64,000 bases of DNA, from NCBI RefSeq assembly GCF_014647375.1, contig NZ_BMPB01000006.1, positions 248,001 to 312,000 on the forward strand, given 5' to 3'. Under the pieces are notes generated by a model. It made no database searches, was not told where the DNA came from, and saw nothing but the letters and a program-made list of their open reading frames with translations. Source of the stretch: Parabacteroides faecis. Lineage in GTDB: Bacteria > Bacteroidota > Bacteroidia > Bacteroidales > Tannerellaceae. Positions 5,932 through 32,385 of this stretch are shown here, in pieces. The translations under genes were made by a program, and so were the position numbers. Positions within the stretch are counted from its first letter, which is position 1. Every line of letters begins with the position of its first letter.

Positions 5932-5943
5932 TGAGTCTGTTAC

Positions 5944-7422: not shown

Positions 7423-7443
7423 AACGGCATTATATAGAATTCG

Positions 7444-10400: not shown

Positions 10401-10524
10401 CCGGTATTGCAATATCCGGCAACAACGATACCGGGATGGTAAAGTAAGTCACCAACCCCACGATAAAACAGGCCGTGAAAGCCATCAGTACCGCGATAGG
10501 ACGTTGTAGTAAGAATTTAACCAT
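7444..10524 (-). CDS. RND-family efflux permease (first pump subunit of the operon)
   Basis: A 1026-residue inner-membrane pump of the RND superfamily. It starts MVKFLLQRPIAVLM with TM1, then a porter domain, TM2-TM6 near 335-480, a second porter/docking loop and TM7-TM12 near 850-1015. The TM4 proton-relay aspartate is D400 in LGMMIDSSII, followed by the VTEN motif. The length is that of the HAE/multidrug class. It is the second gene of the operon, separated from the adaptor gene by a 130-base gap that holds a 30-bp inverted repeat, and followed 21 bases later by the TolC-like gene. It is probably the main multidrug pump, but no substrate-specific motif is visible. Confidence 0.93.
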   Translation of the reverse strand: MVKFLLQRPIAVLMAFTACFIVGLVTYFTIPVSLLPDIAIPEITIQVSGQNTSARELENTVVKPIRQQLMQVSALRDIHSETRDGAGIIRLSFDFGTNTDLAFIEVNEKIDAAMNYLPREVERPRVIKASATDIPVFCLNLTLKTGDSEAAFLDLCQFAETVIKRRIEQLPEVAMVDITGMLKRQLQIVPDIKMLEMAGITLNDLESALNSNNIEPGSMTVRDGYYEYNIKFSTLLRTPEDVQNIYIRKNDRIFQLKELAKIAVVPEMETGASISNGKRAVTLAVIKQTDENMDNMKEALQEVTEYFATVYPDIDFSISRNQTELLDYTISNLKQNLSLGFIFICIVAILFLGDIKSPAVIGLSMIVSLIISFLFFYMFKMSLNIISLSGLILALGMMIDSSIIVTENIMQYRSKGYTLEEACSKGTSEVITPMLSSTLTTIAVFVPLVFMSGIAGAIFYDQAFAVTVGLMVSYFTGIMLLPVLYKLVYSIPDIKHTGINLRINNLIKEHTLDRFYDAGVDFVFRHKKSNIVFILVTLPLCVLLFYEVPKSRMPEIDQNELIAHIEWNENIHIDENRERVDKLFEQVTGEVQEYTSYVGQQQFLLNRDRELSASEAELYFKTENASAIVPLQGKVTEWLNKNYPEAVFSFSPPITVFEKLFVTGEADIVAEFYARNKAEAPEAQSLHKLESQMKTSTGIAPVGVAFDNQLNISIDRQKLLLYKVDYNEVYRLLKTAFKENEVATLRSYQQYLPIALAGDGKTVNDVLQQTLVQTQADKNGKTQYIPLQSLVRVTQGEDLKTITAGKNGEYIPFSFYDVKKAEPLMEEVKKLGGQKWEIDFSGSFFSNQQMLSELVVILLISILLMYFILAAQFESFLQPLIVLIEIPIDVAASLLVLWICGHTMNLMSAIGIVVTCGIIINDSILKLDAINELRKEGVPLMEAIHEAGRRRLRPIIMTSLTTIFGMVPLLFSFDMGSELQKPLSIAMISAMFIGTAVSLFIIPLVYWFIYRKHDVNEVITEKQTEV

Positions 10525-10533
10525 AACTTTTAT

Positions 10534-10674
10534 AGTTGACAGTTGACAAGTGACAGTTGACAGGTGGAGACACCGGTGGATGTCGCTTGTGTTCTATGTT
10601 TTATATTTGTTTATTCATCGGGACTATTTATTGTGTTAAGCTAACTGTCAACTGTCACTTGTCAACTGTCAACT
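10534..10674. repeat. 30-bp perfect inverted repeat between adaptor and pump genes
   Basis: Arms at 10534-10563 and 10645-10674 are exact reverse complements, separated by 81 bases. Each arm is itself built of four variants of GTTGACA / GTGACA. The right arm supplies the last codons and stop of the adaptor gene. It resembles a REP-like or MITE-like mobile palindrome; no transposase is present. Confidence 0.9.
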
Positions 10675-11749
10675 TCTCGATGATGGTTACCGGAGCCTCA
10701 TGTGCCAGGTTAATATTACCGCTTGTAATAACGATATCATCCTCTTTCAAGCCGTCTGCGATCGTATAACTGTCTGCATTTTCCAGGCCGGTATGCACAT
10801 AAGTCCAGTATGCTTTTGTCTTTGTGCTGTCCAGCACGAACACCACCTGTTTTCCCGAACGCAACACCACCGATTCTTTCGGAACGACCAGTTGTTTACC
10901 CAGTGAGCGGTGGATGCTGACACGCACGTTCATGCCTTCGAATAGTTTACCCTTGTCCGTAACTGCAGCTTTCACCTGTACCATACCGTTTTCATCCACC
11001 AATGGATTTATTTCGGTGATTCGTCCTTCCGCTTTGGTATCGTTCAGGGCAAAAGGAGTGACTTCGACCCGGTCGCCGTTCTTTATCAGAGGCAATTCAT
11101 TTTCCAGAACGGTAAACGCCGCCTCCAGACTGCCCGGATCGATGATCGTGCAGAATACGTCGGATGTAGAAGCGGTATTATATTGTTTGGCAAACAGGTT
11201 GGCTACAATGCCGTCGAAAGGAGCCGTCAGCACAGCGTTCCGTTCTTCATATTCGGCGAGCTGATGTTGAATCAGTGCCTGGTCGTAACCACTCTTTACC
11301 CGGACAAGTTGCATGGTTGCAGGGGGAACCTTTGCCGAGTCTGCCAGTGAGTATCCCTGGCCGATCAGTACGTCCTGCAGTTCCAGTTTGGCACGTTCCA
11401 ATGCATCTTTAGCCGTAGCCATTTTGTTTTTCAGCCGGAAAGTGGATAATTCGGCGAGCTTTTGCCCTTTACTCACCCGGTCGCCGTTCTTCACATAGAT
11501 CTCTGCAATCGGTTCAGCCGATTCGAACCGCAGGTCTACATGGCGGCGTGCCGACAATTTGCCGTTACTGATCAGTTCGTGGTTGAAGTCACTAGCCTTT
11601 AATGTCATCACGGTTACCTCGTTGGTTTCGTCCGGTAAAACCGTTTCGACAGTTTCTTCTCCTGCGCTGTTGTCTTTTTTCTCACCGGAGCAGGCTATCA
11701 TTCCGGAGAGAATCAGTATTGCCAGCAAATTGTAGTATTTCATATTCAT
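10655..11749 (-). CDS. RND periplasmic adaptor (membrane fusion) lipoprotein
   Basis: A 364-residue adaptor of the HlyD/AcrA class that bridges RND pump and TolC channel. The N-terminus has a lipobox (LSGMIACS, Cys at residue 20), so it is anchored in the inner membrane by lipid. It carries the two half-lipoyl segments (FESAEPIAEIYVKNGDRV near 75-92 and AVLTAPFDGIVANLF near 171-185) around a helical hairpin (about 100-165), then beta-barrel and membrane-proximal domains. First gene of the efflux operon. The final residues (LTVDK) and the stop are encoded by one arm of a mobile-looking inverted repeat, so the native C-terminus was probably replaced. A palindromic operator and TATATTTG promoter lie upstream. 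Confidence 0.92.
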   Translation of the reverse strand: MNMKYYNLLAILILSGMIACSGEKKDNSAGEETVETVLPDETNEVTVMTLKASDFNHELISNGKLSARRHVDLRFESAEPIAEIYVKNGDRVSKGQKLAELSTFRLKNKMATAKDALERAKLELQDVLIGQGYSLADSAKVPPATMQLVRVKSGYDQALIQHQLAEYEERNAVLTAPFDGIVANLFAKQYNTASTSDVFCTIIDPGSLEAAFTVLENELPLIKNGDRVEVTPFALNDTKAEGRITEINPLVDENGMVQVKAAVTDKGKLFEGMNVRVSIHRSLGKQLVVPKESVVLRSGKQVVFVLDSTKTKAYWTYVHTGLENADSYTIADGLKEDDIVITSGNINLAHEAPVTIIEKLTVDK

Positions 11750-11828: not shown

Positions 11829-13646
11829 TTAATTACGATTTTCCCGTATGTTTTTGAGCATCTTTTTAACTTCCGTTCTCATTTCGCGGATAGCTGTGCT
11901 CTCCACTTTCGGCTCTTTTGTCAGTACGGCGTCAGCCGCTTTGATAAACTTATCTTCCTGAAAGAAAGTCGTTTCCGAGTATAGTTTAGTCAACAGATAA
12001 TAGGGATAGATCCGTTCCGGCAGTATTTCTATTGCATGTAGCAATAAATTTTCTGCTTTCTGATAATTTCCCAGCTCCTGTTCATTTTTTGCCACCATAT
12101 AATGTATCATCGGATCACCACTCAGTTTCATCGCCCGTTCCAACAAATGGTTCGCCTCTGCAAACCGCTCCGTCTTACTCAAGCATTGCGCTGCTTCAAA
12201 CAGTAGTTCCGGCTTATGTCCCATCAGCGGCACCAATTCTTCATACCCGTCCGCCGCCGCTTCATAAGCTTTGCTATTATATAACATCTTCAATGTATTC
12301 CATTTCTTATACCCCTGGTAATAGCCTTTCTGCTGCCAGAAAATCCATCCGCAACATACCGCCATCCCCCCGATTACAGCGACAGAAAGTATCTTCTTCC
12401 CCTCTCGAGAGGGGGTAGGGGGTGTGTCAATGGAGATAGTTGTATTAGCAATCCCCATCAACACCACCAACACCACCCAGAACTCCGGTAGCTGCAACGG
12501 ATAAGACGCCAGGCTGAACACCATCAACGCCAATATCCCTCCTGCCGCTCCTGCCTGCCTGTTTTTCACCCCCCGGAACAAGGAATAGCCTAACAACAAT
12601 ACAAAAACCATTAAACCCACCAACCCTTGTTCCAAACCAATTTGTAAGAATTCATTAAATCCGTATTCCGGACAGCCTGCGACCATCATCTCTGTTTCCG
12701 AGGCTTTCCCGGAGGCAAAATACTGCGCCTGTGTTTCTGCATAAGCAGCCGGAAAACCTCCCAGTCCGGTTCCGGTCCAGGGTTGTTCCATTATAGCTTG
12801 TTCAGTTATTTTCCATAAAAGTAGCCGGCCATTGGCAGAATCTTTCTTTAGAAGAAAAATACCCGTCAATGCACCGGCTACAGAAATTAGTACCAAAACA
12901 GATGATACTATAGTTAAGGTTTTAAATTCATAAATGTATGTTTTTGTTTTTTTCCATCCGATCCGTTGTTCCCAGTACACCCATGCACATGACAGGGCGG
13001 CAGCGATCCAGGCTGTCCGGCTCATTCCGGCAGGCAATACTACGATGATTGCCAGCAAGGTACCCCATGCCAGATAATACAGATACATTTTTGTTTGCCG
13101 TAGGATCATCCACAGGCAAACCGGCAAAACAAGTGCGAGGTATCCGGAATAAGGTCCCGGATTATAAAAATCCCCGGTCAGCCTGAACAGGGAATGGTTA
13201 GAGCCTTCAAAACCATGCAACTGCCGCATCCCCAAAACAGCTTCGACCAATCCGGTTACAACGATCGTTGTCAGAAAAAACAATCGAAGTTGAGGCCATC
13301 CGGTAAATATAAATCGCAACAGAAACCACAGTACGACCAGTTGTCCTCCGAACAACATTTTCTCTGGTTCCGGATTCAGTTGCCAGTTATAAGTGAGCGC
13401 AACGATAGTTGCCAAAACAAGCACTAATCCGTCTGCCATTGAAAAAGCAAACTGTTTCGCCGGTCTTGTCAGCACGGCAGCCAGCAGGCTGCATGTCGCC
13501 AGAAATAACATCGACAGATGAAACCAGTGTACTTTCCCCGTGACTACCCCGTTTACCAGGCTGATATCCGTGGCAAAAACGGTGCACAGCAGAAAAAATC
13601 CGCTGATAGCGAGCAGTGAATAACTTATATACTGTCTGTATTTCAT
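11829..13646 (-). CDS. Wzy_C / O-antigen-ligase-like membrane protein with C-terminal TPR repeats (second copy)
   Basis: A 605-residue paralog of the gene at 654-2474, alike along the whole length: about ten membrane segments, the loop motif TGTGLGGFPAAYAETQ then ASETEMMVAGCPEYGFNEFL, and a TPR-like tail (about 450-590). It belongs to the glycan ligase/polymerase superfamily of the inner membrane. Two repeat-derived stretches lie inside the frame. One is a palindrome-encoded insert (DTPPTPSREG, near residue 410) absent from the paralog. The other is a 27-base segment (codons for LWMILRQTK) that also occurs at 22750-22776. It starts 32 bases after the transglutaminase-like gene and may be the last gene of the NVEALA module, which raises the possibility of a modifying role there (inference). 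Confidence 0.78.
   Translation of the reverse strand: MKYRQYISYSLLAISGFFLLCTVFATDISLVNGVVTGKVHWFHLSMLFLATCSLLAAVLTRPAKQFAFSMADGLVLVLATIVALTYNWQLNPEPEKMLFGGQLVVLWFLLRFIFTGWPQLRLFFLTTIVVTGLVEAVLGMRQLHGFEGSNHSLFRLTGDFYNPGPYSGYLALVLPVCLWMILRQTKMYLYYLAWGTLLAIIVVLPAGMSRTAWIAAALSCAWVYWEQRIGWKKTKTYIYEFKTLTIVSSVLVLISVAGALTGIFLLKKDSANGRLLLWKITEQAIMEQPWTGTGLGGFPAAYAETQAQYFASGKASETEMMVAGCPEYGFNEFLQIGLEQGLVGLMVFVLLLGYSLFRGVKNRQAGAAGGILALMVFSLASYPLQLPEFWVVLVVLMGIANTTISIDTPPTPSREGKKILSVAVIGGMAVCCGWIFWQQKGYYQGYKKWNTLKMLYNSKAYEAAADGYEELVPLMGHKPELLFEAAQCLSKTERFAEANHLLERAMKLSGDPMIHYMVAKNEQELGNYQKAENLLLHAIEILPERIYPYYLLTKLYSETTFFQEDKFIKAADAVLTKEPKVESTAIREMRTEVKKMLKNIRENRN
12399..12425. repeat. Palindromic repeat inserted in frame in the Wzy_C gene
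   Basis: CCCCTCTCGAGAGGGG at 12399-12414 is a perfect 16-bp palindrome, followed by GTAGGGGGTGT. In the gene frame it encodes TPPTPSREG. The paralogous gene lacks it, so it looks like an in-frame insertion of a dispersed element. Confidence 0.7.
13089..13115 (+). repeat. 27-base direct repeat, copy 1 (inside Wzy_C gene)
   Basis: Identical over 27 bases and in the same orientation to 22750-22776; core GCCGTAGGATCATCCACAG. Chance identity of this length in 64 kb is negligible. The two copies bracket the NVEALA module. Confidence 0.85.
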
Positions 13647-13678
13647 AGATCGACTGTTTTACTGGTTTCCACATATCA

Positions 13679-15190
13679 TTAATATACTCTCATACTATCA
13701 TTTTCCAGAAAGAATGCACGTTGATTATACATATGTATGGGTATATACAACCACAATAATGCGTTTCCCGGAATATTGTTATAAGATAATGTCGTGTCGG
13801 TCTCTGATACATACTCGATAGGGGTAAATTTTTTGTGTTGTGTATCCCAGTAAGATAATGTATGCTGTTCCTTGTATCCTTCCGGACGTTTGTGTATTGT
13901 ATAAGAACTTTTATTTTGTATATCAGGGATGAATTTATGTATTTCCCCTTCTGTACTGACATAAAATGGAGCCGTAATGAAACGTAGGGAGTTTCCGTCC
14001 GGAACATCTGCCACCATGAATATATTATCTCCGACAACATCATTAAAATAACAGATCGAATCTTTTCTGTATCCGAGAGCAATATCAGTCCATTTATTAT
14101 AATTGAAATTACATAAGTAAACCTGATTACTACGTTTGTTTTCTTTTATATCCATATCGATAGTAACCTTTATGGTGGTCGGCTTATCAAGATATTCAGT
14201 TGTAACATCTTGTATCAATGGATTTTTGAAAGAAACAGCATAGCCATCGTCATTTTTTCCATAATCTTCTGTTAAATTCGGCTCAAACTGTAGCCGATAT
14301 ACTTTGGCAGGTCTTAGAGTACGTGTTTTAGAAAATAATCGGGCATGAACTCCCGGTGCCAAATTTTCTCCAAAGCTAAGAAAGTGTCCGTTATCCAGCA
14401 CGGCACACCAACAATGCCCACGGTCCATTTTTACCCAAGTTGTCTGATCTATGATAACGGGGATGCCGGCGGATCGCATAGCATATGCTATGAAATTACA
14501 TAAACCTTCACAGGTCCCAATACCGGAGCGATATGTTTCACTGATAGTTGGGTATAAGCTGAGTCCCGTATCTTCATATCTGACCATCTTCTCTATTTCA
14601 TTGCGTAGCACTATACAAGCTTCCAGGGGAGTTTTTACATCCGCAGAATCCAATAAGGGGAGAAAACGTTCCATAAACTCTTTCCTTAGATTTGAGACTT
14701 CTTCGTATTGTGCTCGGTAAGGAAGAATATATCTGCAAAAGTCTGTAAATGAAACGTTTTTTGCCCAAGGTTTTTTCCAGACGGCAAAGGCCAGTTCTAT
14801 ATTGTCTATTAGGAAACTACTGTTAAGTTTCGATATATCGTATTTGTAATGTGTTTCTATTCTGTATCCTCTGTTAGTCAATGAATCACAATGTCTTTTG
14901 ACAGATTGGAACCCGTCAAAAAGAGTGATGTCTGGTCGATACTTTTCTTTTCTGGGAGAAGTATAGTATTGTTCCAGTGTAAAATGATAGGGCATATTCT
15001 CGATTAAGAAACGAGCTGCAGCTAGTTTTGTAGAATCCTTTTTATAATGGTCGAGTACTTTTTCAAGTTCCTGCCGGTTTTCTTTAGCACGCTCAAGAGC
15101 TTGCTCCAGTTTTTTATCATTCTGTGAATTGCAAGCCATTAGGAAGATAGCTAATAATATGTTTATTCTTGATATGAATATACTTTTCAT
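13679..15190 (-). CDS. Transglutaminase-like lipoprotein
   Basis: A 503-residue protein with a lipoprotein signal (IFLMACNS, Cys at about residue 20), a charged helical stretch (25-60) and a transglutaminase/protease-like core. The core has C227 in GIGTCEGLC and H259 in RGHCWC, the usual Cys and His of the papain-like triad. The third residue probably lies in SFGEN just after. The C-terminal half (about 300-500) looks like beta-sandwich. Bacterial members mostly act as peptidases or remain uncharacterised; cross-linking is only one option. It lies 10 bases after the signal peptidase gene and 32 before the Wzy_C gene, so it is probably part of the same transcript and faces the periplasm or cell surface. 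Confidence 0.75.
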   Translation of the reverse strand: MKSIFISRINILLAIFLMACNSQNDKKLEQALERAKENRQELEKVLDHYKKDSTKLAAARFLIENMPYHFTLEQYYTSPRKEKYRPDITLFDGFQSVKRHCDSLTNRGYRIETHYKYDISKLNSSFLIDNIELAFAVWKKPWAKNVSFTDFCRYILPYRAQYEEVSNLRKEFMERFLPLLDSADVKTPLEACIVLRNEIEKMVRYEDTGLSLYPTISETYRSGIGTCEGLCNFIAYAMRSAGIPVIIDQTTWVKMDRGHCWCAVLDNGHFLSFGENLAPGVHARLFSKTRTLRPAKVYRLQFEPNLTEDYGKNDDGYAVSFKNPLIQDVTTEYLDKPTTIKVTIDMDIKENKRSNQVYLCNFNYNKWTDIALGYRKDSICYFNDVVGDNIFMVADVPDGNSLRFITAPFYVSTEGEIHKFIPDIQNKSSYTIHKRPEGYKEQHTLSYWDTQHKKFTPIEYVSETDTTLSYNNIPGNALLWLYIPIHMYNQRAFFLENDSMRVY

Positions 15191-15200
15191 GGCCTTAGAT

Positions 15201-16076
15201 TTAATGAATGACTTTTAAAAAACGTTCCCACCTGAATTTGTTTGTATACGGATCGATTGATTTCCAAATAATCCAGGCTTTTCCAACAATATATTCTTCG
15301 GGCAGTAATCCCCAATAACGTGAATCCTGCGAATTTAATCCATTATCACCTGCCATAAAATAATAATTTTTCTGAAAACGATACTTGTTGATTGGGGTCC
15401 CGTTAAGAAAAGCTGTCGAGTCCTTGTATTGGAGGCTTCCTTGTTGTTCCCATTCGACCAGCTTCTTATATAACCGGCAGTTTGTCCGATTCAATATGAT
15501 GGAATCGCCTTTTGCCGGTATATAGAGTGGTCCGAAATTTTTGATATTCCAGCCTATAATACTGTCGAACGGAAAACAATGAAATATACCATCTTCAAAC
15601 TGTTCTGTTGTAGCGATTTTATTTTGTGATTCAGGATACCCTAAATCAGTTTCTATTCCTTCTATATGATAGAATCCGTTTTGGATGGATAAAGTATCAC
15701 CCGGTAATCCAACACATCGTTTGATGTAATATTTTAGGATGTGCATTTCAATTTTATCCCAACTGTTAGGGTGTGGAAAGTTAAATACGAGAATATCATT
15801 TCGTTGAATCTTTTTGATCCCTGGAATGCGGTAAATATCTGTTTGCTCATTTCGCATGGAAGCAAACAGGTTGAATATACGTGGACCAATAGTAGGTTTC
15901 CAAACTAATATATTGTCACCGATCGCCAATTCTGTTTCCATAGAATTACTGGGAATTTTAAAGTAGGTAAACACAAATACCTGCAGAACAAACCAAAAAG
16001 TAACAATTATACATAACCAAAAGAGTATATTGATTGCTTTATTGATCAAGTTATGTATGCATGCTCGTATTTTCAT
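15201..16076 (-). CDS. lepB: Signal peptidase I
   Basis: A type I leader peptidase of 291 residues: one membrane anchor (about 13-38), then the catalytic serine in PSNSME (S45) and the general-base lysine in YYIKRCVGLPGD (K119). The late box E family GDNGLNSQDSRYWG is also present. It cleaves signal peptides on the outer face of the inner membrane. An upstream in-frame ATG at 16112 would add 12 residues, but it abuts a 10-bp hairpin that would hide it, so the inner ATG is preferred. Genomes of this group carry a housekeeping leader peptidase elsewhere; this copy lies directly after an NVEALA peptide gene, so it may be dedicated to that peptide (inference). Confidence 0.85.
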   Translation of the reverse strand: MKIRACIHNLINKAINILFWLCIIVTFWFVLQVFVFTYFKIPSNSMETELAIGDNILVWKPTIGPRIFNLFASMRNEQTDIYRIPGIKKIQRNDILVFNFPHPNSWDKIEMHILKYYIKRCVGLPGDTLSIQNGFYHIEGIETDLGYPESQNKIATTEQFEDGIFHCFPFDSIIGWNIKNFGPLYIPAKGDSIILNRTNCRLYKKLVEWEQQGSLQYKDSTAFLNGTPINKYRFQKNYYFMAGDNGLNSQDSRYWGLLPEEYIVGKAWIIWKSIDPYTNKFRWERFLKVIH

Positions 16077-16112
16077 TTGATTAATAATGTTTTTTGAATA
16101 CGAAAATATCAT

Positions 16113-16145
16113 GGGCTGTCTTCAACATGCAAGACAGCCCTTTTT
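16113..16145. terminator. 10-bp hairpin between NVEALA peptide gene and signal peptidase gene
   Basis: GGGCTGTCTT (16113-16122) and AAGACAGCCC (16131-16140) pair perfectly. The T-run follows on the plus strand only, so in the direction of the genes it is more likely an RNA-stabilising or ribosome-site-masking structure than a terminator. The remaining gap to 16256 shows nothing else. Confidence 0.55.
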
Positions 16146-16256
16146 CTAAATTTTTATTCGTATCTCTATTCAGAATCATTTTTAGATACGTTATTCTTTG
16201 AAACTTAATAAACTTGTTAGCCTACCTTATGAGTTTGATAAAATGCATTGCATAGT

Positions 16257-16529
16257 TTATAATGCATTTCCATCTTTATCACAGGTACAAGAAACATTCG
16301 TATTTGCTGAATAATAGCAATGTCCGGAAAATTTATACCAGCATTTTCCACCGCCTTCACTACATTTATTCGAACACGAAGTAGTAGTTCCTTCATTATC
16401 AGCTAATGCTTCTACATTTGCTAAAGCTAAATTAGATAACTTAATTTCATTGTTGTTTTGCTTGAAATTCCAGCTGGCTGAAATAGTCATAGCAGAAATA
16501 AGAACTGTCAGAAACATTTTTTTTTTCAT
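16257..16529 (-). CDS. NVEALA-family secreted peptide, six-cysteine type (first copy)
   Basis: A 90-residue precursor: basic start and hydrophobic segment (MKKKMFLTVLISAMTISAS), a spacer, the family motif NVEALA at 38-43, then a small mature part. The mature part has cysteines at 52, 56, 63, 71, 81 and 83 and a CWY motif at 63-65. The NVEALA family (Pfam) is confined to Bacteroidales and has no established function. The cysteine spacing is identical to that of the second peptide here, which suggests a disulfide-bonded fold. It precedes the signal peptidase gene and follows a thioredoxin/DUF1573 lipoprotein gene. The region is very AT-rich compared with flanking genes, suggesting transfer. Confidence 0.85.
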   Translation of the reverse strand: MKKKMFLTVLISAMTISASWNFKQNNNEIKLSNLALANVEALADNEGTTTSCSNKCSEGGGKCWYKFSGHCYYSANTNVSCTCDKDGNAL

Positions 16530-16653
16530 ATCTCAATAATTTATAAATATTTATTCCGTTAATTTTTTATTTATCATTATCCATTATCCTTAGATCATTT
16601 TAGTGAACTTTTACAAGAATAGTTATAATTGATCGTATTAATTAAAAGTTGTT

Positions 16654-17511
16654 TTATATAGCATTACCTTTTAATTTAATTTCAATTGGTGACTCTTTTG
16701 TGTTACAATGTATTATCACATTTCGCTCAAAATATTCAGGACGTTCTGCCGTGAACGTTATTTTTAAATTTATAATTTCACCAGAAGGTACAGTTTTTAG
16801 ATCATATTCAGGAACTGTACATCCACATGATGAAGCAATATCTAAAATTGTTAAATTATTCTTACCTGTATTTTTGATGTGAATTGTTCTTTCTTGAGGT
16901 TTATTCCAATTGAATTTACCAAAATCAATATTTAAATTATCAACTTCGATTTCTGTTTTATCTATTTGAATATTTCCTTTGTTTAATATTTTATTAATAT
17001 ACAATTCTTTTATTTTGGGGTTTGATACAGGATTGCCTAATAATATAACTTTGTTCTCCCTGTCAAGTAAAAATGTATGAAAGGCAATGTCTGATGGAAA
17101 TTTATTTAGCTTATTCAGTTCATCATTTTTATCAAAATACAAAGGGTAGTTGAATTTATTTATTTTAGCTTGTACTTTGATCTCTCTAATTTCTTTTGGA
17201 TGTAATATGAATAAAAATTTTACATGATTATTTGTCAGGGAATCTACTTGTTTCATAAATATTTTCCATTCATTTAATTGAAGTTTACAACTTGAACATC
17301 CTATTGAGTCTATATAAATTAATATTTTATAATTAGAGAGTGAAGAATCGACTGATAATTCTTTATTCGATGATATAAAATCTATATAATTTGTGGGGAA
17401 AATAATTTCTTTTTCATTCCACTCGTTTATTAAATTTGTGATTTCTTTTTTATTATTAGACACATTACATGAGAAAAATAAAAATAAAATCCCTATATAT
17501 AATATTTTCAT
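16654..17511 (-). CDS. Thioredoxin-fold plus DUF1573 lipoprotein (first copy)
   Basis: A 285-residue lipoprotein with a lipobox (LFLFFSCN, Cys near 14). The N-terminal half is thioredoxin-like with a CxxC in SIGCSSCKLQLNEW near residues 71-84. The C-terminal half is a DUF1573 Ig-like domain with the signature ASSCGCTVPEYDL near 225-237. The likely role is a surface or periplasmic redox or binding protein; the partner is unknown. The start is set at 17511 because the lipoprotein signal begins there; the frame opens further upstream at 17559 but would overlap the preceding gene. It lies 7 bases after the propeller gene and 124 before the six-Cys peptide gene. Strongly AT-rich. Confidence 0.78.
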   Translation of the reverse strand: MKILYIGILFLFFSCNVSNNKKEITNLINEWNEKEIIFPTNYIDFISSNKELSVDSSLSNYKILIYIDSIGCSSCKLQLNEWKIFMKQVDSLTNNHVKFLFILHPKEIREIKVQAKINKFNYPLYFDKNDELNKLNKFPSDIAFHTFLLDRENKVILLGNPVSNPKIKELYINKILNKGNIQIDKTEIEVDNLNIDFGKFNWNKPQERTIHIKNTGKNNLTILDIASSCGCTVPEYDLKTVPSGEIINLKITFTAERPEYFERNVIIHCNTKESPIEIKLKGNAI

Positions 17512-17518
17512 AATTATA

Positions 17519-18649
17519 TTATTTAAAGTAAAGTTTGAATAGGCATAGATTGCTGTCATCTTTTAGTTTGTTGTATTTTTTCAAATCCTCATTGGAAATA
17601 ATTTCTTTGCAGGATTGGATTTCTTCTGGTGAAATTACACTTATCATATAAGTATCTGTTAAAATGCTTACATCTTTTACTTTTACACCTCCTTTAAGTG
17701 TGTCAAAAACATAACTTTTGCCATCTTTTTTGCGATAAAAAATATTTCTCCATTTGTCTATTGGCCAGCTTTTTAGTATGGTGTAATAATAATTTTTATT
17801 TTGAAAATTTCGAAAGAAATAATATGGTATTTCCATAGTATCTGTTAGTTTTGAGAAATTATTTAGATCTTTTTTTACGTCTTTTATATACGGCTTTAAA
17901 TTTAAATTGTTATGGCCGAAATCCCATTTATATTCTAATTCTATTGTATCTGTGTTGAAGCGATATACTTCGTTTGAAAATTGTGTTGAAAAATAATAAT
18001 TATTATCGTAATTATAAAAAACTTCAATGCACATATTACTCATAAAAGTATCATCATTATCTTTCCAAAATCCACCTACAACTTGTTTGTTTATTAGATT
18101 ATAAAATGTGACTTTATATTCTAAAGGATTTCCAAGGAGTGTCCAGTATGCTATAATATCATTCTCTAATTTGATCATATCATGCCCTCCACCACTAGGA
18201 AGTTGATATTTATCTACAAAATTACCTTCAATGTCATAAACATGTATAAACCCCATAGGGCTTAACATATAGATCTTATTTTGGTTTATTATAGTTTCAC
18301 TGATTAAATTATATTCCTCTGGTCCATCCCCTGTTTTGTCTATTTTGTATAAAAATTTACCACTTTTATCGAAACAAAATAAAACGGAAATACGATCGTC
18401 TAATATATAAAACCTATTATTGTATTCAATAATTTGATGTATTGAAGTTATAAGACTTTCATCTGTTGTCTCTAGTGGTATAATTTCTACTTTACTAAAT
18501 AAATGTGATGGATCTAATTCATTTTCTTTCAATTCGACAGATAAAACCTTACCTTGATAAGTGTTGTCTTTCTTATTGCATGAAAAAAATAATAAGCAAA
18601 TCACCCCAATTACAATATATGTTGTTGTTTTTGTCATTTTACTATCCAT
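17519..18649 (-). CDS. 6-bladed beta-propeller lipoprotein (AT-rich copy)
   Basis: A 376-residue lipoprotein (lipobox CLLFFSCN, Cys near 24) of the Bacteroidales 6-bladed propeller group (DUF5128 type). The family start is VEIIPLETTDESLI near 53-66, followed by repeated strand motifs such as FCFDKSGKFLYKI and GDGPEEYN. Function in this group is unknown; propellers commonly bind peptides or glycans. Very close in protein sequence to the gene at 31216-32337 along the whole length, but far richer in A and T, which points to separate histories. A second ATG at 18637 is possible. It lies between the second NVEALA peptide and the thioredoxin/DUF1573 gene. Confidence 0.8.
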   Translation of the reverse strand: MDSKMTKTTTYIVIGVICLLFFSCNKKDNTYQGKVLSVELKENELDPSHLFSKVEIIPLETTDESLITSIHQIIEYNNRFYILDDRISVLFCFDKSGKFLYKIDKTGDGPEEYNLISETIINQNKIYMLSPMGFIHVYDIEGNFVDKYQLPSGGGHDMIKLENDIIAYWTLLGNPLEYKVTFYNLINKQVVGGFWKDNDDTFMSNMCIEVFYNYDNNYYFSTQFSNEVYRFNTDTIELEYKWDFGHNNLNLKPYIKDVKKDLNNFSKLTDTMEIPYYFFRNFQNKNYYYTILKSWPIDKWRNIFYRKKDGKSYVFDTLKGGVKVKDVSILTDTYMISVISPEEIQSCKEIISNEDLKKYNKLKDDSNLCLFKLYFK

Positions 18650-18749
18650 TTTAATAATTGTGCCAAAAATATGTAACCTTCAAAAATTATTTTACCATAT
18701 ATAATTTAACTTGGAATGATATTTTTGACACAATTTTAGTTATTAAACT

Positions 18750-19001
18750 TTAGCAAGTGCAATATATGTCTGTTGATACAGAGCGTTGACAAGTACCTCC
18801 AAATCTATACCAACATTTTCCAATACCGTCTGTACAACTTTTCGAACAAGTAATTACAACACCTTCATTATCAGCTAAAGCCTCTAAATTGGCTAGAGTT
18901 AAATCTGAAAGTGTGACTTCATTTTTGCTCTGGTTGAAATTCCAGCTGGCTGCAAGAGCCATAGCAGTGATAAGAACTGCTCCAAAGATCTTTTTCTTCA
19001 T
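18750..19001 (-). CDS. NVEALA-family secreted peptide, six-cysteine type (second copy)
   Basis: An 83-residue precursor with signal-like segment MKKKIFGAVLITAMALAAS, the motif variant NLEALA at 38-43 and cysteines at 52, 56, 63, 71, 81 and 83, the same positions as in the peptide at 16257-16529. CWYRF at 63-67 matches CWYKF there. It ends right after the last cysteine, so the mature form would be about 40 residues. It is the head of the next peptide-propeller-DUF1573 triplet. A start at MKKK is supported by similarity to the other copy. Function unknown; secreted signal or toxin-like peptide are both possible. Confidence 0.85.
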   Translation of the reverse strand: MKKKIFGAVLITAMALAASWNFNQSKNEVTLSDLTLANLEALADNEGVVITCSKSCTDGIGKCWYRFGGTCQRSVSTDIYCTC

Positions 19002-19140
19002 GATCTTAGTATCTTATTAAATTAAAATTCTATTTATTTTCTATCTTTGCCTACTCTATTTGGATCAGATAGTCGAATGAAATAATTCATTCTGTTTTGT
19101 CGATTATATTACCACGATACACCTCCTTTTTGGGGTCTTC

Positions 19141-19183
19141 GGGAGTTTGCTTGTACATTCTTGTCGGGATGCAGCAAACTCCC
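19141..19183. repeat. Long-loop hairpin in the gap before the second NVEALA peptide
   Basis: GGGAGTTTGC (19141-19150) and GCAAACTCCC (19174-19183) are perfect complements with a 23-base loop. No T-run follows on the minus strand. Also in this gap is GAATGAA-N4-TTCATTC (about 19075-19092). Either could separate the two peptide triplets; no promoter was recognised for the downstream one. Confidence 0.5.
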
Positions 19184-19214
19184 TTTCGTTCGATCACCGA
19201 ACATTCCCCTTTAT

Positions 19215-20075
19215 TCAGACCTTGACGGGTTGGTTGTTAATACTATTGTACTTAATTGTTACGACTTCATCGAAGAAGCCAGTATCCTTCGGTGTCATCT
19301 TGATTCCCACCCGAAGGGTTTCTCTGGATTTCGCGAATCGTTTGTTATAGGTAGCTGCCGTGCGGCCACAAGTGGTACTTACGTCCACGGTCACGCGGGG
19401 ACTATCCCCTGTATTTTTAACCTTTATGGTTGTTTCTTTCGTTTCCGATTTGTCGAATGTGCCGAAGTCAATATCTGTCTGATTGATTTCTGTGGTCGTT
19501 TTGGGTATGTTTTTGTTGGGATTGTCTTTGTCCGTAATTTGTTTCAGGTATAGGTCTATCACAGCCATGTTATGTACCGGATTTCCTAATATTGCTACTC
19601 TATTCTTTTTATCCAGTAAGAATGTCTGGAAAGTCATATCTGCCGGAAACTTGTTCAACTTGTTTAATCTGTTGTCCATGTCAATGCAGACAGGACGGTC
19701 AAAGCCATCACGTTTTAACAGATAACGTATTTCTTTATAATCTTTCGAATGGAAGAAGAAAAGGAAAGGTACTTTTTCTAGTACTACAGAATCGGTATAT
19801 TCGATCTGTTCTTTCCATTTATGTAGTTGTAGCTTACAACTGGTACAACCTGTTGAATCGACATATACTAATACTTTATATTCGGACTGCGGAATCCGGA
19901 AATCCGTGGTGTCTGTCAGATAACGGGTGAAAATAAGGTTGTCAGGCAATTTGCTCTCTTTTACCTGCCATTCATTTACCAATTGCTCAATATGCTTTTC
20001 TTTCTCTTTCTGTTCGTTTTTGCAGGAAAAGAAGATAGGTAATAATACTAGTATGATTAGATTTAAAGCTTTCAT
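19215..20075 (-). CDS. Thioredoxin-fold plus DUF1573 lipoprotein (second copy)
   Basis: A 286-residue lipoprotein (lipobox LLPIFFSCK, Cys near 18) laid out like the protein at 16654-17511: CxxC in STGCTSCKLQLHKW near 74-87, a thioredoxin-like half and a C-terminal DUF1573-like half. The DUF1573 signature is altered: the usual SCGC-T appears as TTCGRTAATY, so the second cysteine is replaced by arginine, and the following Pro/Gly pattern is lost. Less AT-rich than the first copy. It lies 9 bases after the propeller gene. Probably periplasmic or surface redox/binding function beside the NVEALA peptide; the partner is inferred only from gene order. Confidence 0.75.
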   Translation of the reverse strand: MKALNLIILVLLPIFFSCKNEQKEKEKHIEQLVNEWQVKESKLPDNLIFTRYLTDTTDFRIPQSEYKVLVYVDSTGCTSCKLQLHKWKEQIEYTDSVVLEKVPFLFFFHSKDYKEIRYLLKRDGFDRPVCIDMDNRLNKLNKFPADMTFQTFLLDKKNRVAILGNPVHNMAVIDLYLKQITDKDNPNKNIPKTTTEINQTDIDFGTFDKSETKETTIKVKNTGDSPRVTVDVSTTCGRTAATYNKRFAKSRETLRVGIKMTPKDTGFFDEVVTIKYNSINNQPVKV

Positions 20076-20084
20076 TACTATTCT

Positions 20085-21143
20085 CTAAATTTTGAACTCT
20101 ATGATTGGATCATCACTTTTTACTTCGGTTGCAACAATCGTATTTGTTTCTTCGTTTATATCAATACCATATATAGCTCGATCGAGAGTATATTTCTGTA
20201 CAGGGTTTCCTTGAAGATCGAACACATAGATAAACCTACCTCCGTCTTCCGGTTGTTCTCCACGCTGATAAGCTGCTAACTTATCTTTAAACTTAATGCC
20301 TTGAAATACTGTATATATATATTTATTGGTTACTTTGATATCACTAAATCCCATAATGCCATTCGGAACGCCAGATCCGTCTTTACCTGTTTTAAACTCG
20401 GGTTCTCCGGCCGGACCATACAATACCTTGTGTGTACTGTCTTTAAGATTATAGATTTCAAGTGATTCTCCTAATTGGGTAGCCATAGCCAATACACCAT
20501 TCTCCGGATTGTAATCCATAAAACTTCTCCAGGCCTGTGCTAATGCAGGACGAGATGTTTCTTCATTGGCTGTTTCGCTCGGGATTGTACCATTGCTTTT
20601 TATAGGTTTACCGCTACCGTCAACCTCCCAAAAACGATGTTCTCCTAGATAGTCAGGAATCAAAAAACCTGATTCCATCGTATGAAAATCCAATGAACGG
20701 ACTAATTTCTTGTCTAATTTAATCTCCTCTACCAATTCTGCAGAACTGGTAGAAGGAGATATTTTCCAACGTGTAATTTGCATCTTGTTGGGATCGAGTG
20801 CCCATAGGGAATCTAGGGAGTTGAATTGAATGTTTGCTGCTGATAACATCTCCTTCGGTGCTTCTCCACGTCTGCCAAAAGAAGCAATGTGTTTCCACCC
20901 CGGATAGGTAAACGCGTGTAAATAGTGATCTATATTGTGCAGATCCATTACAACGGCAACACTATCCCTGACCGTTACCCGGAATGGGTAACGGAACAGG
21001 ATAGTATCCAGGTTGATTACCTGTGCGCTGAGTGCCTTGGTTTTGGTAAAGTCCGAGTATCTCGAAAAGTGCGAATCCGGAGAACTCGTACAGGCACTCA
21101 GGCAGCTAATACCTATTAATATATAATAAAGGAGATGTTTCAT
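20085..21143 (-). CDS. BF3164-like 6-bladed beta-propeller lipoprotein
   Basis: A 352-residue lipoprotein (lipobox GISCLSAC, Cys near 18) of the BF3164-like/TolB-like propeller group. Repeat motifs include FGRRGEAPKEML near 90-101, which is the GxGPxE-type turn typical of the group, and repeated strand pairs to the C-terminus. Function unknown. It starts 3 bases after the third NVEALA peptide stop and ends 9 bases before the thioredoxin/DUF1573 gene, so the peptide, propeller and DUF1573 genes form a tight triplet. GC content is ordinary for the window, unlike the next triplet. Confidence 0.8.
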   Translation of the reverse strand: MKHLLYYILIGISCLSACTSSPDSHFSRYSDFTKTKALSAQVINLDTILFRYPFRVTVRDSVAVVMDLHNIDHYLHAFTYPGWKHIASFGRRGEAPKEMLSAANIQFNSLDSLWALDPNKMQITRWKISPSTSSAELVEEIKLDKKLVRSLDFHTMESGFLIPDYLGEHRFWEVDGSGKPIKSNGTIPSETANEETSRPALAQAWRSFMDYNPENGVLAMATQLGESLEIYNLKDSTHKVLYGPAGEPEFKTGKDGSGVPNGIMGFSDIKVTNKYIYTVFQGIKFKDKLAAYQRGEQPEDGGRFIYVFDLQGNPVQKYTLDRAIYGIDINEETNTIVATEVKSDDPIIEFKI

Positions 21144-21146
21144 TGT

Positions 21147-21368
21147 TTATTCAAGACTTAAGCCTGTAATTCTCATTTCTACCCAATCTCCGTCACAGTC
21201 TACAGAACCATCACCGTAGCAATTAACTCTGTCTCCATGTTCACCATAAGCCAACGCTTCTATATTATCTAATACTAGAGCTGGCAATTCATTTTTTTGA
21301 TTAGACCAGAAATAAAAGCCTGCGATCAGGCAAACCATAAATCCGACTAATTTTAATTTGTTCTTCAT
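21147..21368 (-). CDS. NVEALA-family peptide, two-cysteine type (third copy)
   Basis: A 73-residue precursor with membrane/signal segment (KLVGFMVCLIAGFYFW, about 6-21), the motif variant NIEALA at 35-40 and a short tail with two cysteines (NCYGDGSVDCDGDW). It differs from the six-cysteine copies downstream. First gene of the minus-strand module, transcribed from a TATTTTTG promoter flanked by 11-bp direct repeats, divergent from the membrane regulator gene. Only 3 bases separate it from the propeller gene. Family membership rests on the NxEALA motif and context; function unknown. Confidence 0.75.
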   Translation of the reverse strand: MKNKLKLVGFMVCLIAGFYFWSNQKNELPALVLDNIEALAYGEHGDRVNCYGDGSVDCDGDWVEMRITGLSLE

Positions 21369-21392
21369 ATCTGTTTACATAATTTGTTACAA

Positions 21393-21400
21393 CAAAAATA
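21393..21400 (-). promoter_or_regulatory. Promoter -7 element of the NVEALA module
   Basis: TATTTTTG on the minus strand, 24 bases before the third peptide's ATG, fits TAnnTTTG. The -33 region lacks a TTTG, which fits activator dependence. Confidence 0.55.
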
Positions 21401-21422
21401 AAGAGGCTTTTTTAGAGAAGCT

Positions 21423-21441
21423 CCTAGATTTTACCTAGATT
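21423..21441. promoter_or_regulatory. 11-bp direct repeats CCTAGATT in the divergent promoter region
   Basis: CCTAGATT at 21423-21430 and 21434-21441, exactly 11 bases apart, with a weaker third unit (CTTATATA) at 21445-21452. They end at about -30 of the module promoter. Eleven-base direct repeats are what OmpR/PhoB-type winged-helix proteins bind, and the adjacent divergent gene encodes such a domain. Confidence 0.6.
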
Positions 21442-21496
21442 ATGCTTATATAGGTGTTTTTTTATTCATTTTACCTCTTTTTGAATAGTTCTTTTC

Positions 21497-21504
21497 TATT
21501 TTTG
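21497..21504 (+). promoter_or_regulatory. Promoter -7 element of the membrane regulator gene
   Basis: TATTTTTG on the plus strand, 21 bases before the regulator ATG; no well-spaced -33 box. Confidence 0.5.
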
Positions 21505-21525
21505 TGTTTAAAATAGGATATAGAA

Positions 21526-22659
21526 ATGAAGAGTAATTTGTCGAATTGGTTAATTGGGGGGGTACTAGCTTTACTTATAACTATAGGTGGAGGTTATTGG
21601 TATTCTTTTAGTTTACGTAGTAAAGTGACAGAAATTTGGAAGCAGACATTATGGGAAGACTGTACAAATAGGATGAGAGAAATCAAAGTAAAGAAGAAGC
21701 ATATATTTTCTCCTGCTACTTCACCAAACATCGAAATAGCAACAGAGGGGCAGACTTTACTTTTAAAAAAGGATAGTACTGAATCTTTAACTGCTGATGA
21801 AGGTGATTTTCTTGCTGACCAATATTACTTGTCATTTAAGAATCCTGTAAAAATCGAAAAGTTGGATAGTCTTTTCCGAATAAAGTTGAAAGAAAATGGA
21901 TATGAGTTTAAAACAGCGGTATCTCTTTATAATAATGATTCTGATAAAAAGACGTTTTACGGTATAAATGATGTGAGCCTTCTACCTAATTATTTGAAAT
22001 TGACATATAAAGTGGATATTCAAAATGTTATCGTTTTGGAAGGATATGTAAGGGGGGACTGGTTAGAAAACCTGCTGTGGGGTAAGAGTTATTATGTCAT
22101 ACTCTTTATAATTGCTTGTTTAGCATCGATAATATTAGTGATGAAGAAGAGAAACAGCAAACGACCAAACTCTTTGATTCAACCAATAGTGCTACAGGAT
22201 ACCCGGAATGAACGGTACTTGGATATTACTCAGGTTTTGCCGGATGAATCGGTTTGGCAGGAGGTTGAGCTAGTAACAGAGCCTGTGAAGGAGTGGGAGG
22301 AACCTCTTTCCAAACCTGCAGCCAATGTTATTTATTTGGATGAAAAGAAACATGTCTTGATTTATTCTGGAATGACTATACTTCTTGCTCCAAAAGTGTT
22401 TGGCTTGTTCAATCAGTTGTCGAAAGGAAGAGATTATTTTCAATCTTATGAATATCTTTATCAGACTCTTTGGACTGAAAAGAATAATGTTGATAAAAAG
22501 CATTTAGAACAGTTGGTAATCCGTTTGCGGAAAGACTTGAAGGATATTCCGGATTTAAGTATCGATGCCATACGGGGGAGTGGGTATCAACTTAAATGGA
22601 AAAATGATACGAAACTGACTATTGAGCAGATAGAGTACAATATAGGTACATCTGAATAG
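21526..22659 (+). CDS. Membrane-spanning winged-helix transcriptional regulator
   Basis: A 377-residue protein with TM1 at about 8-25, an extracytoplasmic domain (26-188), TM2 at about 189-206, a cytoplasmic linker and an OmpR/ToxR-type winged helix at about 268-358. The winged-helix motifs are LLAPKVFGLFNQLSKGRDYF, LYQTLW, the recognition helix NNVDKKHLEQLVIRLRKDL, and the wing RGSGYQL. The topology is that of a sensor histidine kinase whose kinase part is replaced by a DNA-binding domain, so it would read a periplasmic signal and act directly on DNA. It is divergent from the NVEALA module, with 11-bp direct repeats between them. A role as activator of that module is inferred. Confidence 0.8.
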   Translation: MKSNLSNWLIGGVLALLITIGGGYWYSFSLRSKVTEIWKQTLWEDCTNRMREIKVKKKHIFSPATSPNIEIATEGQTLLLKKDSTESLTADEGDFLADQYYLSFKNPVKIEKLDSLFRIKLKENGYEFKTAVSLYNNDSDKKTFYGINDVSLLPNYLKLTYKVDIQNVIVLEGYVRGDWLENLLWGKSYYVILFIIACLASIILVMKKRNSKRPNSLIQPIVLQDTRNERYLDITQVLPDESVWQEVELVTEPVKEWEEPLSKPAANVIYLDEKKHVLIYSGMTILLAPKVFGLFNQLSKGRDYFQSYEYLYQTLWTEKNNVDKKHLEQLVIRLRKDLKDIPDLSIDAIRGSGYQLKWKNDTKLTIEQIEYNIGTSE

Positions 22660-23071: not shown

Positions 23072-24241
23072 TTAATAATTAAATCCGAACTGCCACAATG
23101 GGATTACATTCATGTAGCCTTGTTCTATATTGTCTTTTATTATAAAACCATTTTCTATGCCTTGCAGCTGCTTTTGTTTTTTATTCTTTCCTCCTATTTC
23201 AAAAGTGTAACTTGCTATTTGAAAGTCAGAAACAGCCGAGGTAATAACATCTTGTTCTACACGCATTTGATTCAGGAAGAATGTCTCTCTGATGTTCCCT
23301 GTTTCTGATGTTTCTTGTCCTAAACAATACATTAAGGTAGGGTTGTCTAAATAGACTTTATCCACTTTGCCAAGTCCTCTGATACCACCGGTGTCATCAC
23401 GTAATTGTGAGATTAGTCCGGCTTCTTCGAGATAAAGAAAATAATCGGATAAATTGTTGCGACTTACTCCTAACATGGCTGCAATACTACTCATATTGGG
23501 TTTGAATGGTACGCTTCGGGCTATGATTGTGAGCAGTTGCTTTAATTTTCGTGCTGTAGACACGCTCATTTCAGAATATTGCGGAATATCGACTTCCAAT
23601 GTTTTATTTATTATTTGTTGCAAACGTATATAGAACTGATCTTCCTGGGAGAATGGATAATAACCTTCTTCCAGATAGGATTGGAAATAGGCATAAGGAC
23701 GGAATTTATCAGGAAGCTCTATGCGGTGTTGCATGATATCAACCAATGGATAGACTGGTATCTCTATATGATGAAACATATTCAGGTATTCACGAAACGA
23801 AAGTCCTTGCATGGAATAGACAATAGCCCGTCGGCTCAGGTCTGCTGAGCCCTTGTTAATGTCGAGAATGGAAGAACCTGTAAAAAATATTTTCAGATCA
23901 GCATGATAGTCATACATCAGTTTTAACTCACGGGCCCAATCTTTGTATTTATGAATCTCGTCAATAATAAGGTGAGTTCCTCCTCGCTTCACAAATTCAT
24001 CTGCTAACTCTACCAAGTGGTGGGCTGAAAAATATAAGTCATCGGCATTGACGAATAATGTTGTATTCCTATTCAGCTTCTCCTTGGCATATTGCAACAT
24101 CAATGTTGTTTTTCCTACGCCACGTGGCCCAACCAATCCTAACAGACGATTGTTCCAATTAATACGGTCGAACATATATCGATGGAATGTGGTAGGTATG
24201 GAACGTAACATTGCATCGAAACTCATTTGTAACTTATCCAT
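23072..24241 (-). CDS. AAA-family ATPase with DUF4143-like C-terminal domain
   Basis: A 389-residue cytoplasmic protein with Walker A GPRGVGKTT at 38-46, Walker B HLIIDEIHKY near 89-98, an arginine-rich sensor region and a winged-helix plus nuclease-like tail typical of the AAA_14/DUF4143 group common in Bacteroidales and archaea. The biochemical role of this group is unsettled. It is a single gene with its own TATATTTG promoter and two nearly identical palindromes directly upstream, so it is likely regulated, perhaps by its own product or an unlinked repressor. It is convergent with the membrane regulator and separate from the propeller genes beyond 24.5 kb. Confidence 0.85.
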   Translation of the reverse strand: MDKLQMSFDAMLRSIPTTFHRYMFDRINWNNRLLGLVGPRGVGKTTLMLQYAKEKLNRNTTLFVNADDLYFSAHHLVELADEFVKRGGTHLIIDEIHKYKDWARELKLMYDYHADLKIFFTGSSILDINKGSADLSRRAIVYSMQGLSFREYLNMFHHIEIPVYPLVDIMQHRIELPDKFRPYAYFQSYLEEGYYPFSQEDQFYIRLQQIINKTLEVDIPQYSEMSVSTARKLKQLLTIIARSVPFKPNMSSIAAMLGVSRNNLSDYFLYLEEAGLISQLRDDTGGIRGLGKVDKVYLDNPTLMYCLGQETSETGNIRETFFLNQMRVEQDVITSAVSDFQIASYTFEIGGKNKKQKQLQGIENGFIIKDNIEQGYMNVIPLWQFGFNY

Positions 24242-26710: not shown

Positions 26711-26824
26711 ATGAATCCAGATTATGAATAATGTATCTTTTTGATATATAATTATTGTCTTTATTTGAGTTTTAATAAACATATGATCGGATTATCGTCT
26801 TCACTGATCTTTTTACTGATGGAT

Positions 26825-28012: not shown

Positions 28013-28042
28013 ATACATCCCGTTTTTAAAAGTTTGAAGTTG

Positions 28043-28195: not shown

Positions 28196-28242
28196 GTGGG
28201 ATACGGGGATAACTGCATCTTTGTTTGCAAAATTTGAATGTT

Positions 28243-32337: not shown

Positions 32338-32385
32338 GACAGTAATTGATTTCATTGAGTAGGCTGCAATGTAGCCAAATATTTC

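Follow-up and report, generated by a model that had tools for sequence, protein, structure and literature searches.

A conserved NVEALA peptide gene set in Parabacteroides faecis and other Bacteroidales, with propeller lipoproteins that appear to track the peptide core

What purpose is served by the short precursors of the NVEALA family (PF14055)? The question is raised by a locus of Parabacteroides faecis, analysed here within a window of 64,000 nucleotides (assembly GCF_014647375.1, contig NZ_BMPB01000006.1, positions 248,001 to 312,000; coordinates below are those of the window), where three NVEALA precursors share the minus strand with genes for propeller, thioredoxin/DUF1573 and transglutaminase-like lipoproteins, a signal peptidase I (SPI) and a Wzy_C membrane protein. 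The gene set is conserved with NVEALA genes, the precursors form two classes, a conserved lead type and a variable cargo type (class B), and sequence comparison indicates that the propeller beside a cargo precursor tracks its core. These sequences suggest, with somewhat less than even confidence, a Sec-exported, leader-processed, disulfide-bonded peptide system whose peptide-specific partners are most likely immunity proteins and whose lead peptide is probably linked to a membrane regulator.

All genes named in a preliminary description of this DNA were found in place, the regulator divergent and the others on one strand. Read along the minus strand from 21368, the module opens with the lead precursor (21147-21368; PF14055, E=1.1e-12), which has a two-cysteine core (CYGDGSVDC...), followed by a TolB_like six-bladed propeller lipoprotein (20085-21143; PF15869, E=2.2e-87) and a thioredoxin-like/DUF1573 lipoprotein with the motif CTSC (19215-20075; PF07610, E=6.6e-13). 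A cargo precursor with a six-cysteine core (18750-19001; PF14055, E=2.2e-12) is followed by its candidate cognate partner, a DUF5128/DUF4934 six-bladed propeller lipoprotein (17519-18649; PF17170, E=9e-43; solved relative 4raa), whose gene overlaps by 41 bp that of a second thioredoxin-like/DUF1573 lipoprotein, with CSSC (16654-17559; PF07610, E=4.9e-25). The third precursor (16257-16529; PF14055, E=8.2e-11), also of the cargo type and by eye like the one at 18750-19001, precedes the dedicated SPI of family S26 (15201-16112; PF10502 Peptidase_S26, E=3.1e-30, and TIGR02227, 2.9e-31, both over cut-off), a transglutaminase/papain-like lipoprotein (13679-15190; Transglut_core exactly at its cut-off of 23.0 bits, and a structure model) and the Wzy_C (O-antigen ligase-like) membrane protein with C-terminal TPRs (11829-13646; PF04932 (Wzy_C+TPR), E=2.2e-16). 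Intergenic spacing ranges from the 41-bp overlap up to 213 bp. The preliminary description had assigned a propeller gene set to the precursors; this held for two of them, and the third has no propeller of its own, with SPI next to it. Across the three precursors the PF14055 scores are 48.0, 46.9 and 41.9 bits, all above the curated cut-off of 27 bits, and by Pfam score the propellers are likewise members of the TolB_like family (PF15869, which we take to be the BF3164 family) and of the DUF5128 family. To our knowledge, no function has been assigned to the NVEALA, BF3164/TolB_like or DUF5128 families. The top matches of the TolB_like propeller are propellers downstream of lead peptides in other loci (L046, L013 and L068); sequence searches returned no solved relative for it or for the transglutaminase-like protein. 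Separately, DUF6520 matches the precursor at 16257-16529 weakly and below cut-off (E=0.0011), possibly a sign of kinship with another family of small proteins.

NVEALA genes occur in 24 of 39 genomes of the genus, in 59 of 119 sampled genomes of the family and in 8 of 149 sampled genomes of the order (6 over cut-off), and a gene-order survey showed that their neighbours are conserved with them, outside the genus too. Within the genus, 22 of the 24 genomes with NVEALA but 0 of the 15 without it carried the SPI subfamily, defined by E values below 1e-80 (housekeeping signal peptidases and fragments score 1e-25 to 1e-37; Fisher P=5.4e-9). Across the 119 family genomes, 42 carried both, 17 NVEALA only, 10 SPI only and 50 neither (P=1.5e-9), and two of the ten with SPI only (G211 and G244) hold precursors once the locus is read (L131 and L136). 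At the order level, SPI below 1e-80 was found in four of the six genomes over the NVEALA cut-off and in none of the 143 others, and G074, one of the remaining two over the cut-off, has a more distant SPI beside NVEALA genes (L113, L115). SPI adjoins NVEALA in two genomes of other families, G106 and G074, and a similar layout recurs on an Odoribacter contig (L029) and in other genera.

The association also holds at the scale of gene neighbourhoods. The genus has 30 SPI copies: for 23 of them an NVEALA match is found on the same contig no more than 10 kb away, and the contigs of the other 7 have no such match. None of 10 hand-picked housekeeping signal peptidases has one so close. Five of the seven copies (L099, L101, L102, L103 and L105) sit at the start or end of a contig with propeller, thioredoxin or Wzy_C genes nearby, one (L100) has near it an NVEALA precursor recognised by our own profile, and one (L104) has no module gene near it. 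In the loci that were read, 62 of 65 SPI copies are at most four genes from an NVEALA, propeller, thioredoxin or Wzy_C gene, a figure biased upward because part of the loci were picked for their NVEALA genes; the copies without such a gene within four genes are those of L104, L126 and L141. For Wzy_C, strong matches (E=4e-55 or better) came from 22 of the 24 genus genomes with NVEALA; among the 15 NVEALA-less ones, 13 were without a strong match (one with a weak match, 4.9e-5) and two had partial genes. NVEALA was found by our own profile in 59 of 60 hand-chosen NVEALA regions, and these 59 loci, many of them cut by contig ends, contained a propeller in 57 cases, a thioredoxin in 40, the regulator in 39, the transglutaminase-like gene in 31, SPI in 29 and Wzy_C in 25. 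The 6.66-Mb genome itself has eight NVEALA matches, three at this locus, one on contig 1 and, on contig 3, four near a second copy of the module, which keeps SPI, the transglutaminase-like gene and Wzy_C with NVEALA. At one end of the second copy (L010; G000:C3:386000-405000, about 12355-12594 in it) a further SPI is present only as pieces. The highest number of NVEALA matches in the genus sample, 24, was seen in a genome of 2.5 Mb (G153).

The two classes emerged from 181 distinct NVEALA-family proteins, of which the 170 with the anchoring motif were used and the rest dropped. Each precursor begins with a hydrophobic stretch at its N terminus; the leader, some 24 residues long, closes with N[VI]EALAxxE, and the core that follows is short. 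Positions -3/-1 read A-x-A in 165 of 170 sequences, a figure to which the anchor contributes since it demands something similar, and position +3, on which the anchor sets no condition, is E in 161 of 170. A lead core of the form C-x-x-x-[GC]-x-[ILV]-x-C was found in 43 of 44 precursors divergent from a regulator compared with 7 of the 126 others, some of the seven being lead peptides displaced or cut by a contig end. This core partly resembles the pediocin-box motif of class IIa bacteriocins, with the spacing off by one residue; no homology is claimed. Class B leaders share the ending ...ELSDLALANVEALAxxE and are conserved to +3, and their cores, measured in an earlier set of 97 such precursors, are variable from +6 onward, with an entropy of 3.6 to 4.1 bits at each position. 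Divergence from a regulator was seen in just 1 of 120 class B precursors. Cysteine counts are even in 107 of 118 class B cores and in 49 of 50 lead cores.

Relations between class B precursors and propellers were examined for 100 precursors with a downstream propeller-sized gene, using pairs from different genomes, a normalised core score of at least 0.30 and a propeller score above 0.2 as thresholds of similarity. Among core-similar precursors, the next propeller was similar in 49 of 53 pairs (37 of 40 at core scores of 0.3-0.6) compared with 72 of 4,782 overall, and among pairs alike in leader (≥0.8) and unlike in core (<0.15) it was similar in 0 of 119. These two figures together indicate that the propeller follows the core rather than the leader of the same precursor. 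In 2,000 permutations, the threshold was reached in at most 8 of 53 pairs, and 13 of the 16 core families were consistent throughout. Descent as a two-gene cassette would explain part of the pairing; in core-similar pairs, the gene at -1 was similar in 11 of 46, at +2 in 11 of 51 and at +3 in 5 of 50, and this neighbour control points to the peptide-propeller pair as the unit. The window's second precursor (18750-19001) falls into one such core family, together with a precursor of locus L087 from another genus (core 0.36, propeller 0.28, mutual best). An adjacent partner specific to the mature peptide, as in bacteriocin and immunity pairs, is seen here as a sequence association. A lipobox-like start was present in 123 of 147 TolB-type and 80 of 95 DUF5128-type propellers.

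Orphan propellers of the partner type are common. The propeller partner of the CPNGC core family matched at 1e-25 in 48 of 119 genomes, and 30 loci were read, one per genome: nine had a CPNGC-type precursor upstream (one of them beyond a second propeller), two had a different precursor (in one locus adjacent and short in its core, in the other about 1.2 kb off), one was cut off upstream, and 18 had no precursor within about 1.4-1.5 kb, with a different precursor just past that flank in one of the 18 (L166; precursor in L041). In a tree of 33 propellers (those of the loci read except the one cut off upstream, together with four more that have a precursor), the paired propellers were fully intermingled with the orphans, with 11 changes compared with a shuffled mean of about 10, at least three of them forced by well-supported branches; most deep branches were unresolved and the bootstrap had not settled. 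Orphans occur also in genomes without an NVEALA match (such as G169, G186, G195, G196 and G266), and among small cysteine-bearing open reading frames beside orphan propellers at eight chosen loci we found one further NVEALA precursor (L023). The window has its own orphan of the CPNGC-core partner type (24528-25529, minus strand; normalised score of 0.59 to the partner in L036), with no precursor within 1,485 bp upstream (L152) and none NVEALA-like among the small cysteine-bearing reading frames beside it. This pattern resembles that of orphan immunity genes, by analogy; the same picture would be expected of receptors that eavesdrop or of propellers with an independent function.

The lead peptide faces the regulator (21526-22659, plus strand), in which a Trans_reg_C winged helix-turn-helix (wHTH; E=9e-9) occupies residues 284-356 of 377, after predicted long helices at 2-52 and 187-211. 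We infer from sequence and model a topology of an N-terminal long helix, a periplasmic domain, a second transmembrane helix, a linker and a C-terminal wHTH of the OmpR/PhoB/ToxR type. The only solved relatives by sequence were weak wHTH ones, and the model, a weak one (mean predicted local distance difference test score, pLDDT, of 64.6), matches BaeR, SaeR and ToxR in its wHTH and nothing in its periplasmic part among the fold matches listed. In ToxR and CadC the wHTH is N-terminal and followed by a single transmembrane segment; the regulator is like them in being probably membrane-bound with an OmpR-type wHTH and unlike them in carrying it C-terminally, behind two long helices. Lead cores and regulators co-diverge moderately across 35 of 42 pairs (seven lacked the anchor), with rho values of 0.41 for the periplasmic domain and 0.39 for the wHTH, compared with 0.21 for the thioredoxin (26 pairs) and 0.38 for the adjacent propeller (22 pairs). 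The partial rho between lead core and periplasmic domain given the wHTH was 0.243, a value reached in 0 of 1,000 permutations. These correlations lend some support to a possible functional link between lead peptide and regulator.

The catalytic residues of the module's enzymes are intact. Ser57 and Lys131 of SPI, which we take to be the catalytic pair, are present in 61 of 61 sequences longer than 260 residues (nine shorter ones of 70 were left out); the nearest named relatives of this SPI are those of Parabacteroides gordonii and P. goldsteinii. CxxC is found in every thioredoxin/DUF1573 protein longer than 220 residues (47 of 47; 36 shorter left out), and among 67 transglutaminase-like proteins longer than 400 residues a Cys column and a His column are conserved in 99%. 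Fold matches of the transglutaminase-like model (pLDDT 87) to the putative cysteine protease 3isr, to transglutaminases and to LapG place the protein at 13679-15190 in the transglutaminase-like superfamily, as a protease or a cross-linker. In the sections seen of the bacteroidetocin paper, Bacteroides are said to lack general disulfide machinery, and the thiol oxidoreductases of bacteroidetocin loci to likely serve the peptides (PMC6671954); by analogy, the same argument fits the thioredoxin/DUF1573 proteins of the NVEALA module. As for Wzy_C, we rejected a role as an O-glycosyltransferase acting at the known sequon (other sites may be used): D[ST][AILVMT], the Bacteroidales-type glycosylation sequon, occurred in 7 of 168 cores against a shuffled mean of 12.2. 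A second Wzy_C protein with TPRs, 43% identical to that of the module, lies at 654-2474, and in several genomes of the genus (G156, G185, G160, G105, G159 and G162) a second Wzy_C-type match is likewise found about 11 kb from the first.

Under the reading given at the outset, precursors would pass the inner membrane by Sec, and the dedicated SPI would most likely remove the leader in the periplasm, at or beside the A-L-A site. Disulfides would be made or proofread by the thioredoxin/DUF1573 proteins, with the transglutaminase-like protein and Wzy_C acting later. The propeller lipoprotein matched to a cargo core would most likely provide peptide-specific binding or immunity that shields the producer from an antagonistic peptide, and the lead peptide would probably be an input or output of the divergent regulator. 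The preliminary description had proposed a secreted-peptide system whose products are cleaved, disulfide-bonded, perhaps modified and sensed across the membrane. The conserved gene order supports this proposal in part; cleavage is plausible from the invariant Ser/Lys dyad and from conservation that falls sharply just after A-L-A, disulfides from the mostly even cysteine counts and the constant CxxC, and sensing gains indirect support from the separate lead type and its co-divergence with the regulator. That proposal did not include the division into two peptide classes, the matching of propellers to cores or the orphans, all of which bear on what the peptides probably do.

Several observations weigh against this reading. 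No SPI match was obtained in 2 of the 24 NVEALA-bearing genomes of the genus and 17 of the 59 of the family sample, some of which are fragmented, and co-inheritance of neighbouring genes can come from linkage. The A-L-A lies a median of 24 residues past the hydrophobic stretch; the usual site of signal peptidase I is nearer to that stretch, and class B leaders also have an A-rich possible cleavage site right after it, where SPI may cut instead. The lack of sequon enrichment in cores, and the wHTH that co-diverges with the lead core nearly as the periplasmic domain does, also count here. The lead-core pattern was written after the sequences had been read, and the pairing thresholds were fixed after a first listing, so that the 49 of 53 does not come from a pre-set test. 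Three of the 16 core families include at least one propeller pair below threshold, and taken over every core-propeller pair the rank correlation is weak (0.064; partial 0.055, a value reached in 6 of 300 permutations), since the scores of unrelated short cores are at noise level.

The evidence can also be read in other ways. A more specific form of the proposal, possible though doubtful on these sequences, is that NVEALA peptides form an undescribed class of antagonistic Bacteroidales peptides, exported by Sec, trimmed by SPI, disulfide-bonded, countered by propeller immunity and switched on by the lead peptide via a one-component regulator, with orphans as an immunity repertoire. Peptide signalling, with propellers as core-specific receptors or co-receptors and orphans that eavesdrop, would account for the cognate pairing, the orphan propellers and the lead peptide divergent from a membrane regulator; it is rather unlikely, given that class B precursors are almost never divergent from a regulator and that the propellers mostly resemble ordinary lipoproteins; those scanned had no output domain. 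That propellers sit in the operon amid processing genes and track the core would equally suit core-specific maturation or carrier scaffolds for peptides whose role is that of envelope or niche factors rather than of toxins or signals, but orphan propellers occur without peptides, some of them in genomes without an NVEALA match, and we regard this account as unlikely.

It is improbable that SPI, Wzy_C and the transglutaminase-like protein belong to a different pathway and have only synteny in common with NVEALA-propeller cassettes. Such a view could draw on the 30 of 59 NVEALA-anchored loci without SPI in the stretch taken, on the ten SPI-bearing family genomes that gave no NVEALA match, on the two NVEALA-less genomes of the genus with partial Wzy_C genes, and on the RND efflux set beside Wzy_C, itself a syntenic and non-specific neighbour; against it stand the phyletic co-occurrence at genus, family and order level, the precursors found by locus in two of those ten genomes, and the second module copy, which keeps the three enzymes with NVEALA and shows no RND set in the stretch read. 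Chance synteny in one genus, with no functional module at all, might be argued from the fact that most loci read come from one family, but it is already largely refuted by SPI beside NVEALA outside the family (G074 and G106) and by the core-propeller pairing; the similar layouts of other genera and Odoribacter also speak against it, and we consider it very improbable.

Our literature search, in which subscription papers were mostly not covered, returned no paper naming NVEALA, one in which BF3164 is mentioned, and no description of the module, the pairing, the lead class or the SPI link; the main text of a Bacteroidales paper on mining for ribosomally synthesized and post-translationally modified peptides, as far as seen, mentions no signal peptidase, double-glycine, propeller, thioredoxin or transglutaminase (PMC10352776). 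Among the closest parallels are the bacteroidetocins, described in the parts seen as class IIa-like bacteriocins of Bacteroidetes with a leader of 15-16 residues cleaved after GG, an ABC-like transporter with a double-glycine peptidase domain, and producers that inhibit themselves (PMC6671954). Like these, NVEALA precursors are short, with a cleaved leader predicted and a thiol oxidoreductase gene in the locus (bacteroidetocins have four cysteines); unlike them, they have a leader with a hydrophobic start that ends in N[VI]EALAxxE, signal peptidase I as the candidate peptidase and a gene for a cognate partner. The leader thus lacks the GG ending, and a scan of the proteins encoded between 654 and 25529 found no double-glycine-peptidase ABC transporter. 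A cargo-specific adjacent partner and orphan partners also recall bacteriocin or effector-immunity pairs and the orphan immunity genes of Bacteroidales (PMC10470768 and PMC12247911, in the portions seen); those pairs involve type VI secretion effectors, whereas here the cargo is a peptide, the partner a six-bladed propeller lipoprotein and the immunity putative. According to the part seen of a further study, most Bacteroidetes SPI substrates expose Gln after cleavage, the Q-rule (PMC5837995). Processing by signal peptidase I would be shared with that system, but only 30 of 170 precursors have Q directly behind ALA, at +1, so that the Q-rule does not hold for this site, which fits an SPI of different specificity or cleavage elsewhere.

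Should the proposed peptide system be real, it would offer gut Bacteroidales a means of producing secreted cysteine-rich peptides and of resisting them, the repertoire of partners being readable from genomes, and it suggests an undescribed way for them to fight or signal by peptides. The NVEALA, BF3164/TolB_like and DUF5128 families gain a testable joint role: the module predicts exact peptide-propeller pairs, a lead peptide per regulator and a dedicated peptidase with a defined site.

Downstream of Wzy_C, the minus strand continues with an RND efflux set (2698-11749; membrane fusion protein, RND, outer membrane factor and RND; Pfam HlyD, ACR_tran twice and OEP), an arrangement seen in many loci. 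We rejected this set as a module-specific peptide exporter: its membrane fusion protein has a strong match in 37 of 39 genomes of the genus, including 13 of the 15 without NVEALA, and the set is absent from the stretch read at the second module copy. It is a conserved neighbour, judged not module-specific, and may still act as an exporter.

On the other side of the regulator, an AAA_14/DUF4143 ATPase (23072-24241) separates it from a cluster of propellers without adjoining NVEALA precursors, which comprises the orphan at 24528-25529 and those at 26825-28018, 28225-29412 and 31216-32355, the last of them weakly like the partner of a CSRSC-type core (0.24); a DUF4221 protein (25547-26782) lies among them. 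A Bacteroides-type promoter pattern gave five matches in the window compared with 2.8 expected (at least five in 18 of 100 shuffles), none upstream of module genes, and a sigma-70-type scan gave 58 against 45.9 (s.d. 6.3), little over chance. Rfam gave no match at the gathering threshold in window positions 1-34000. Between the third precursor and SPI, a 10-bp hairpin with six G-C pairs spans 16113-16140, and could favour peptide over enzyme message or terminate transcription of the opposite strand.

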